From the NCBI GenBank assembly GCA_902782665.1, contig CACZOA010000109.1, positions 84,899 to 148,898 on the forward strand: a stretch of 64,000 nucleotides of DNA. The letters are read 5' to 3'. The translations under genes and the position numbers were made by a program. Source of the stretch: an uncultured Bacteroidales bacterium. Lineage in GTDB: Bacteria; Bacteroidota; Bacteroidia; Bacteroidales; Paludibacteraceae. Of the stretch, positions 48,640 to 52,204 are shown one piece after another; positions within the stretch are counted from its first letter, which is position 1; each line of letters begins with the position of its first letter. Below the pieces are notes generated by a model. That model did no database searches and had not been told where the DNA came from. It saw nothing but the letters and a program-made list of their open reading frames with translations.

Positions 48640-49410
48640 ATGAGCAAACTAATAATAGCAGGCAGAGAGTTCAACTCTCGTCTATTCCTTGGAACAGGAA
48701 AGTTCAGCAGCAACGATTTGATGAAAGATTCGATCGTCGCTTCAGAGACAGAGATGGTGACGGTGGCAATGAAGCGTATTTCCCTTGGAGACGCGAATGA
48801 TGATATGCTAAAACATATCGTCGACAAAAACATACAATTACTACCAAACACCAGTGGTGTGCGTGACGCAAAAGAGGCTGTATTCGCAGCAAAAATGAGT
48901 CGTGAGGCATTCGGCACAAACTGGCTGAAACTTGAGATCCACCCAGATCCACGCTATCTGTTGCCAGACTCAATCGAGACATTGAAGGCTACAGAAGAGT
49001 TGGCGAAACTAGGATTCGTGGTATTGCCATATTGCCAGGCAGACCCAGTGCTTTGCAAGAGACTTGAAGAGGCAGGCGCAGCAACTGTCATGCCGCTTGC
49101 CGCACCAATCGGATCAAACAAAGGTTTGCGTACAGAAGATTTCTTGAAAATCATCATTGAGCAGGCCAATGTTCCTGTTGTTGTAGACGCGGGAATCGGA
49201 GCACCGAGTCATGCTGCAGCAGCCATGGAGTTAGGAGCAGACGCTTGTTTAGTGAACACAGCGATCGCAGTGGCAGGAGATCCAGTGCGTATGGCAGTAG
49301 CATTCCGTGATGCTGTGAAATGTGGACGTGACGCATACGAAGCAGGTCTAGGAGCCGTGACAGCAGGAGAAGCAGTCGCAAGTTCACCTCTGACCTCATT
49401 CTTGGGATAA
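48640..49410 (+). CDS. thiG: Thiazole synthase
   Basis: The 256-residue TIM-barrel enzyme condenses DXP, ThiS-thiocarboxylate and dehydroglycine into the thiazole. [59 protein letters not shown] and [31 protein letters not shown] are all canonical. As ThiH is present, dehydroglycine probably comes from tyrosine cleavage. A short GTAG-containing palindrome (about 48584-48606) precedes the gene, and two REP-like palindromes follow it. Confidence 0.96.
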
Positions 49411-49425
49411 TAAATAAAACCACAG

Positions 49426-49455
49426 AGGCGTAGGGGCAGGTTTCAAACCTGCCCG
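49426..49455 (+). repeat. REP-like palindrome, family a, copy 1
   Basis: AGGCGTAG is followed by the near-perfect palindrome GGGCAGGTTT-C-AAACCTGCCC (49434-49454). The 5' GTAG foot plus hairpin is the layout recognised by REP-associated transposases. It lies 16 bp after thiG. Confidence 0.9.
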
Positions 49456-49518
49456 CAACAACGGACATCAGATTTCCACGCCCGCAACAACGATGTTCGA
49501 AACAACATTCATTGGCAA

Positions 49519-49548
49519 AGGCGTAGGGGCAGGTTTCAAACCTGCCCG
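49519..49548 (+). repeat. REP-like palindrome, family a, copy 2
   Basis: It is identical to copy 1 over AGGCGTAG and the whole palindrome (hairpin 49527-49547) and in the same orientation, 93 bp further on. Both are followed by ACAACGG and ACAACATTCATTG-like sequence, so the repeat unit is larger than the hairpin. It ends 50 bp before the transposase ATG. Confidence 0.9.
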
Positions 49549-49597
49549 AACAACGGTGCACACAACAACATTCATTGATTAAAAACAGTACAATATT

Positions 49598-50098
49598 ATG
49601 TTACCATACAGAAAAAACATTCGTCTACAAGGTTACGATTATTCAAGCGACGGCTTGTATTTCATAACCATTTGCACAAACAATAGATATCCATTGTTTG
49701 GGAGCATAAAAGATTGGCAAATGAATCTAAATGATAATGGTAAAATAGTATTGGAATGTTGGAATGATTTGCCCAACCATTACGACAATGTCATCCTGTA
49801 CGATTTTTGCATTATGCCAAATCACATACACGGGATAATTCAAATATGTAATGGATTGGCAGGTTTGAAACCTGCCACTACGGCACATCCATTGTCGGAA
49901 ATTGTCAGAGCATTAAAAACATTTTCTTCAAGGGAAATCAATGAAAAGAATGGAACTCAAGGATGTCCTCTATGGCAAAGAAATTATTATGAACACATAA
50001 TCAGATCTGATTCGGCATACACGACTATTTCTGAATATATAAAAGGTAATCCCCAAAGATGGGTATACGACAAATTTTATTACAAAGAAAACTATTAA
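49598..50098 (+). CDS. REP-associated tyrosine transposase (RAYT, Y1/HUH family)
   Basis: The 166-residue protein has the RAYT pattern: start R-L-Q-G-Y-D-Y-S..GLYFITICT, the HUH motif MPNHIHGII (H76, H78), LSEIVRALKTFSSREIN, and WQRNYYEHIIR...ISEYIKGNPQRW with candidate catalytic tyrosines. Such enzymes nick and spread REP palindromes, usually as single domesticated copies. Here two GTAG-headed palindromes lie upstream and a third is embedded in the gene at 49858-49880, encoding AGLKPATT (residues 88-95). It sits between thiG and thiC, 3 bp before thiC, on the same strand. Confidence 0.92.
   Translation: MLPYRKNIRLQGYDYSSDGLYFITICTNNRYPLFGSIKDWQMNLNDNGKIVLECWNDLPNHYDNVILYDFCIMPNHIHGIIQICNGLAGLKPATTAHPLSEIVRALKTFSSREINEKNGTQGCPLWQRNYYEHIIRSDSAYTTISEYIKGNPQRWVYDKFYYKENY
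49858..49880 (-). repeat. REP-like palindrome, family a, inside the RAYT reading frame
   Basis: Read on the minus strand it is CCGTAG-T followed by GGCAGGTTTCAAACCTGCC, so it has the same GTAG foot and palindrome as the upstream copies but in the opposite orientation. It sits just after the HUH motif in a region that is variable in the family. Confidence 0.9.
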
Positions 50099-51802
<1,704 letters not shown>

Positions 51803-51837: not shown

Positions 51838-52204
51838 ATGAAGAATCAAGACAACAATGCGATACTCAATAAAAGTAAGAAATTTGCTATTCGTTGTGTT
51901 AATCTCTATAAATTTATGCAAAGAGAAAAGTGAGTTCGTAATGTCAAAGCAACTTCTTAGAAGTGGCACAAGTATTGGTGCTAATATCAAAGAAGGAGTA
52001 AGAGCCCAATCAAAAGCAGACTTCTATGCAAAACTATGTATTGCTCTAAAAGAAGCTTCAGAAACAGAATATTGGCTTGAGATTCTCTACGAAACCGATT
52101 ATATTTCAAAAGACCATTTTGAGAATATCAATGCAGATTGTACCGAATTATTAAAAATATTAACTTCTATATGTAAGCATAAAGAAGAGGAAATAGCATC
52201 ATAA
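51838..52204 (+). pseudogene. Frameshifted four-helix-bundle (S23/IVP family) gene
   Basis: From ATG 51838 one frame gives the expected N-terminus (ILNKSKKFAIRCVNLYKFMQREK) and then hits TGA. The +1 frame continues with SEFVMSKQLLRSGTSIGANIKEGVRAQSKADFYAKL...KEASETEYWLEILYETDYI to 52204. Aligned with the intact relative at 15557-15940 the two parts join without a gap if two A residues are restored in the A-run near 51927-51931. It is therefore either a recent pseudogene or a slippage-dependent frame. It is flanked by AATTCATAATT-type repeats on both sides, between thiC and the transporter gene. Confidence 0.85.

Follow-up and report, generated by a model that had tools for sequence, protein, structure and literature searches.

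The window, a stretch of 64,000 nucleotides from an uncultured Bacteroidales bacterium of the Paludibacteraceae (assembly GCA_902782665.1, contig CACZOA010000109.1, forward-strand positions 84,899 to 148,898), carries a small gene at the junction of two thiamine genes. On the plus strand, thiG (48640..49410) is followed by an open reading frame of 166 amino acids (49598..50098, ATG at 49598, stop codon at 50096-50098), and thiC (50102..51802) begins 3 bp past that stop. The product is a RAYT (REP-associated tyrosine transposase) or TnpAREP, a Y1 HUH endonuclease of the subclass 2.4 (RAYT group 4) type. Its sequence contains PNHIHG at residues 74-79, with the HUH motif H76-I77-H78 encoded at 49823..49831 (+), as well as WQRNYYEH and YIKGNP. 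H76 and H78 are invariant in 27 aligned rows, the window included, and so is Y147 of the YIxxNP motif (50036..50038, +), the presumed catalytic tyrosine by analogy with the family. Two REP copies with a GTAG foot and the family stem lie upstream on the plus strand, at 49430..49453 and 49523..49546, and both read GTAGGGGCAGGTTTCAAACCTGCC. Another copy with its GTAG foot on the minus strand reads GTAGTGGCAGGTTTCAAACCTGCC and lies within the reading frame (49858..49881), where the plus strand encodes AGLKPATT as codons 88-95. Its outermost stem pair is T-A instead of the G-C of the flanking copies, and this replacement keeps the 10-bp stem. A preliminary description of this DNA had reported two identical GTAG-headed palindromes less than 170 bp upstream of the ATG and an inverted third one forming codons 88-95 past the HUH motif. 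Both statements are correct, the upstream pair being identical over 24 bases, and the palindrome inside the gene belongs to the same REP family as the flanking copies.

Profile matches and fold support the assignment of this reading frame to the RAYTs. The protein scored 37.3 bits with Pfam PF01797 (Y1_Tnp), for which the cut-off is 23. With the NCBIfam model NF047646 (REP_Tyr_transpos) it scored 67.6 bits (E 1e-18) and stayed under the 80-bit cut-off, which is a database threshold and no published family trait; across the phylum of the window, 138 of 198 genomes match this model at E 1e-10 and just 60 of 198 reach the cut-off. The NCBIfam IS200 TnpA model NF033573 gave 21.5 bits, below its cut-off of 55. 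A structure model built from 27 aligned sequences including that of the window had a mean pLDDT of 84.3. Its top fold in the PDB was 4er8, a RAYT with bound REP hairpin (E 1.4e-07, TM 0.61), which outranked the IS200/IS605 transposases in the fold search; by sequence alone 4er8 is a weak match (E 0.35). Alignment and model together place the in-gene REP in a variable coil, residues 84-98 (49847..49891, +), between the HUH strand 76-83 and the helix 99-118. The RAYT searches gave one match in the window genome. Three further PF01797 matches exist there, all of them missed by the RAYT query with its limit of E 1e-10, and the one of these three Y1 loci whose reading frames were read looks like an IS200-type TnpA.

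The preliminary description had proposed a genome-wide count of the palindrome, whose absence elsewhere would have spoken against its reading. Searching the window genome with the REP 24-mer at up to 3 mismatches returned 35 strand matches, which collapsed to 21 sites, and the exact core GGCAGGTTTNAAACCTGCC was present at 13 sites; the same pattern written backwards returned none. Among the reading frames over the 21 sites (one of which could not be judged), the RAYT gene is the only convincing coding sequence with a copy; another site falls inside an open frame of 249 amino acids but upstream of its likely start. The genome is a draft (3.33 Mb in 114 contigs, 87.7% complete), which could speak for a chance resemblance or an assembly artefact. 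With an empty control and the same arrangement in four genomes of the genus, however, we give this explanation next to no credence. The exact core was present in eight of nine genus genomes, with 0 to 22 copies per genome. It persists in G068 (17 copies), G110 (10), G117 (8) and G125 (4), genomes in which this RAYT was not found and of which three are less than 80% complete, so that the repeats can outlast the RAYT.

Homologues of the gene were collected in two samples. For the phylum sample, a profile from which the loop had been deleted matched 70 of the 198 genomes at E 1e-25. One locus was taken from each of the 69 matching genomes besides that of the window; 68 of these had an HUH segment, 56 had a readable loop and 12 were left out because the frame was broken or a motif could not be recognised. 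The named sample consists of 80 loci from many phyla, of which 79 were read, and is the only source of homologues outside the phylum of the window. Since its members were ranked by how closely they resemble the window protein, loop included, its rate is biased upwards. A palindrome was counted as tagged if it had a GTAG tag, at least 8 matched pairs, at most one mismatch and a loop of at most 5, and the loop region was scored from the HUH motif to the WQ motif. By this definition, which was adopted after GTAG had been seen inside longer stems and was applied likewise to all controls, tagged palindromes were found in the loop of 37 of 56 phylum homologues and in the rest of none of these 56 reading frames; the remaining 19 have no tagged palindrome. 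Among the named homologues, 64 of 79 carry one in the loop and 13 of 79 elsewhere in the reading frame. An earlier, narrower definition of the tag gave 31/56 and 60/79. Synonymous recoding of the same peptides left a mean of 0.92 and a maximum of 4 in the phylum sample (40 trials) and a mean of 2.08 and a maximum of 6 in the named sample. Eight other tetranucleotides in the role of the tag gave 0 to 8 of 56 and 0 to 17 of 79, and the best of them in both samples was GGTA, which is able to overlap GTAG.

The peptides encoded by these palindromes differ widely: 37 different strings were read at the 37 tagged phylum loci and 56 at the 64 named loci, where edge residues are included and related REPs are thus counted apart. 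The palindrome recurs while the peptides vary, so what recurs is the DNA and not one peptide. The preliminary description had suggested aligning RAYT homologues and had named AGLKPATT conserved without the palindrome as the finding that would contradict it; the alignment gave the opposite picture. These data also bear on the idea that the loop peptide is functional and conserved and the palindrome a by-product of its codons. Peptides of the same REP family, such as VGAG[LF]KPAPT, do turn up again in distant genes. But beside the diversity of strings, 44 stem families were still counted in 102 rows, synonymous recoding nearly always abolishes the tagged palindrome and some homologues do without the loop peptide altogether. 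Peptide conservation as the cause of the palindrome was ruled out by the recoding and the peptide diversity, and we regard a functional peptide as very improbable. In some homologues (L080, L097) the loop is shorter and lacks a REP; compared with two REP-less homologues, the window loop has 5 and 9 extra residues. The proteins of five loci (L091, L143, L068, L069, L078) carry additional REP-like peptides outside this loop, either in a different loop or at one of the termini.

We compared the 18-base core of each in-gene palindrome with the 800-bp flanks of its own and of other genes and counted agreement in at least 16 of 18 bases as a match. In the phylum sample, 16 of 37 loci matched their own flanks, whereas other genes' flanks were matched in 11 of 1332 comparisons; in the named sample the respective numbers were 31 of 64 and 222 of 4032. 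The observed mean was reached in 0 of 10,000 permutations, and an earlier run without the tag filter had given 39/84 versus 356/6972. The loop thus often carries the cognate REP, though over half of the in-gene REPs (21/37 and 33/64) have no match at this level within 800 bp. A second RAYT-like gene of G068 carries a different loop palindrome, which recurs just past the end of that gene; in the loops of the second RAYT-like genes of G048 and G117 no stem of at least 10 pairs was seen. Flipping of the in-gene REP between relatives is at most a conjecture: out of 33 independent pairs, 8 agreed better inverted, 8 in the same sense and 17 equally, and in several of the informative pairs the outcome hangs on one central base or on different copies of a multi-REP loop.

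On a tree of 136 loop-deleted cores, the stem families require 51 changes, while 200 shuffles required a mean of 82.4 and a minimum of 77, which indicates that the REP type follows the enzyme core. For the mere presence of a tagged REP, 26 changes were counted (200 shuffles: mean 30.4, minimum 25), a number inflated by decayed copies because 'none' stands for no tagged palindrome by the definition used. The presence of the in-gene REP is thus labile on the tree, or the copy is lost from sight by decay. A more far-reaching interpretation, which we consider conceivable but doubtful, is that the genes of subclass 2.4 RAYTs retain a live copy of the enzyme's own substrate, whose renewal or exchange keeps pace with the REPs in the flanks. 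The gene would then record the specificity of its enzyme and might tie the level or fate of the enzyme to the REP population.

Within the genus, the RAYT lies between thiG and thiC in four of the eight genomes with thiC (window, G019, G048 and G085), and the in-gene REP is present in all four. G085 has one intact and one degenerate upstream REP, and its in-gene REP has 27 bases exactly in common with the intact one. The window and G019 have a T-A pair where the in-gene REP of G085 has the outer G-C pair; G048 shows the same replacement plus one broken stem pair. At the G048 locus (L245), three upstream REPs were seen, of which two belong to a near-exact tandem unit and are separated by 63 bp. 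For the RAYT genes of the window and G085, dN/dS was 0.18 when codons 83-98 were left out; these codons themselves gave about 0.9, from only about 9 differences; the core is accordingly under selection and the loop is drifting. We also observed that synonymous divergence from G085 is 0.38 for the RAYT gene versus 0.73 for thiG and 0.78 for thiC, and that the values from G019 are 0.02, 0.12 and 0.10, respectively. The lower divergence of the RAYT gene may reflect a recent exchange of the unit or a constraint on its DNA.

A rival explanation makes the in-gene REP a control element kept by selection, with the enzyme binding or nicking its own gene, or with an mRNA hairpin that slows translation or stabilises the transcript; self-targeting and hairpin control of translation were among the options of the preliminary description. 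The frequent cognate relation would agree with this explanation, as would the preservation of the stem in the window by the T-A for G-C exchange relative to G085 and an RNA hairpin stronger than in shuffled sequences (z -2.97). Further, 23 stem positions in 32 independent pairs were changed on both sides with pairing kept (null: mean 1.7, maximum 6), and 27 positions in the same pairs were changed on one side or without pairing. The paired changes are not proof of selection, however, since the comparison was confined to loci in which a palindrome was detected, which makes the null too lenient, and different REPs that were freshly inserted would also yield paired differences. Presence is labile on the tree and absent by our definition from a third of the phylum sample (19/56), G048 has broken a stem pair, the loop has a dN/dS of about 0.9 against G085 on its few differences, and around the start codon the predicted folding is not stronger than in shuffled sequences. 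Taken together, a control function seems improbable to us.

The preliminary description had further claimed that the vitamin operon now depends on the RAYT unit for its spacing and coupling. Relatives keep thiG and thiC adjacent or around another reading frame without this RAYT, and dependence of the operon is therefore not supported. The gap measures 55 bp in G117 and 27 bp in G099; in G068 and G110 it measures 648 and 655 bp and is occupied by another reading frame, which in G068 encodes a PDDEXK_3 protein (E 4.6e-44) and in G110 was likened to it by eye. In both genomes (loci L248 and L250) this frame is flanked by inverted repeats with ACCACAGAG, and we take it to be GxxExxY-like. The window keeps AAAACCACAGAGG immediately 5' of its first REP. 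With only 3 bp between them, the RAYT gene and thiC of the window could be translationally coupled. No Rfam element, riboswitches included, reached the gathering threshold between 42000 and 56000, and neither promoter-like sites (5 versus 2.9 expected, sd 1.8) nor terminator-like sites (1 versus 0.7 expected) at the unit were clearly above chance. A 23S_rRNA_IVP reading frame lies 3' of thiC in the window (51857-52204). Small passenger genes seem to accumulate in the thi cluster, and the genus offers a natural series at one site, with a RAYT, another reading frame or neither.

How quickly such a unit may move and its loop may change is illustrated by Bergeyella zoohelcum (L102, 2933-3533) and Capnocytophaga canis (L136, 2934-3611). 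Their RAYT cores are identical (252/252 and 195/195 bases), and the loops differ by one base and by a 78-bp in-frame insert of REP units. On both sides, the near-identity stops within REP-like sequences; farther out, segments of 318 bp (96%) and 573 bp (91%) follow in the same order with other spacings. Unless one assembly is contaminated, this suggests that DNA has recently passed from one genus to the other, as a REP-bounded unit or as a larger region that was later rearranged. It also suggests that the in-gene REP array changes rapidly.

In our view the locus is very probably a REPtron, that is a RAYT with cognate REPs upstream and one in frame in its own variable loop, in which the in-gene copy is a tolerated insertion and the whole a passenger between thiG and thiC. 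As judged from E. coli TnpAREP, the enzyme would recognise single-stranded GTAG-footed hairpins (GTAG-GGGCAGGTTTCAAACCTGCCC) and spread them. One copy may have landed, or been kept, in the coil between the HUH strand and the next helix, which would act as a permissive loop that accepts extra residues. The self-match and the tree point to a stem type tied to the enzyme lineage, and the tree to a detectable in-gene copy that comes and goes. Inside the genus, the in-gene copy is inherited and drifts slowly, the enzyme core is under purifying selection, and the unit is a passenger at the thiG-thiC junction which relatives lack. Insertion and tolerance of a REP, one of the options offered in the preliminary description, is thus the best reading of the in-gene copy, which most likely is a tolerated insertion in a permissive loop.

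In-gene REPs as such have been described before. Quentin et al. (2018) called REPs inserted in frame at this loop a "unique feature" of TnpAREP subclass 2.4, whose insert between strand beta3 and helix alphaC varies in length and sequence; to this subclass they assigned all 100 sequences that Bertels et al. had in RAYT group 4 (PMC6006769). In the traits compared, the window gene fits this subclass except for one motif residue. The HUH motif NH[IFV]H appears as NHIH at residues 75-78, and the WQ motif as WQRNYYEH with W126 invariant in 27 rows. The beta3-alphaC insert corresponds to residues 84-98, which differ among homologues in length and letters, and it holds the in-frame REP at 49858-49881. 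Long REPs with a GT[AG]G foot lie near the gene, namely the two upstream copies within 170 bp, and a C-terminal tail domain is absent, the protein ending 14 residues past YIKGNP. The Y motif YIxNNP, given in Table 1 of the same paper, reads YIKGNP in the window, with G at the fourth position, and YIKENP in its G085 ortholog, while Y, I, P and the second N are retained. The subclass is also described with an insert of 8 residues at the end of helix alphaB (PMC6006769). Further differences from the published subclass are that the loop of the window is merely 5 to 9 residues longer than in the two REP-less homologues, that its in-gene REP has a single instead of a double GTAG foot, and that the gene is set between thiG and thiC.

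More distant systems share parts of this arrangement. E. coli TnpAREP (subclass 2.2, 4er8) resembles the window RAYT in its fold, with 20% identity in the fold alignment, and in a GTAG-footed hairpin as the presumed substrate, but subclass 2.2 is listed in the table of PMC6006769 as having no beta3-alphaC insert and long REPs with bulges. The TnpA proteins of IS200/IS605 (subclass 1.1) belong with the window RAYT to the Y1 HUH nuclease superfamily. Di Nocera et al. (2013) found GTAG/CGTC REPs within unrelated genes, where the REP is read in frame inside a coding sequence as in the window; their named hosts are repair, tRNA and other genes, and sections 15 and 16 of the text name no RAYT host (PMC3733652). 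Within our partial coverage of the literature we recognised no other account of in-gene REPs of RAYTs, a term search of PMC2817692 returned none, and we found no mention of five of the encoded loop peptides. The window is thus a well-supported new example of a published arrangement and no new kind of system. What is new here is quantitative: the in-gene copy often matches its own flanks, and the stem type follows the enzyme core. If both relations hold, a subclass 2.4 RAYT that is still uncharacterised would often reveal its substrate in its own gene. REP specificity, for which three pairs of enzyme and repeat have been compared (PMC8266576), would then become directly testable over many such pairs.
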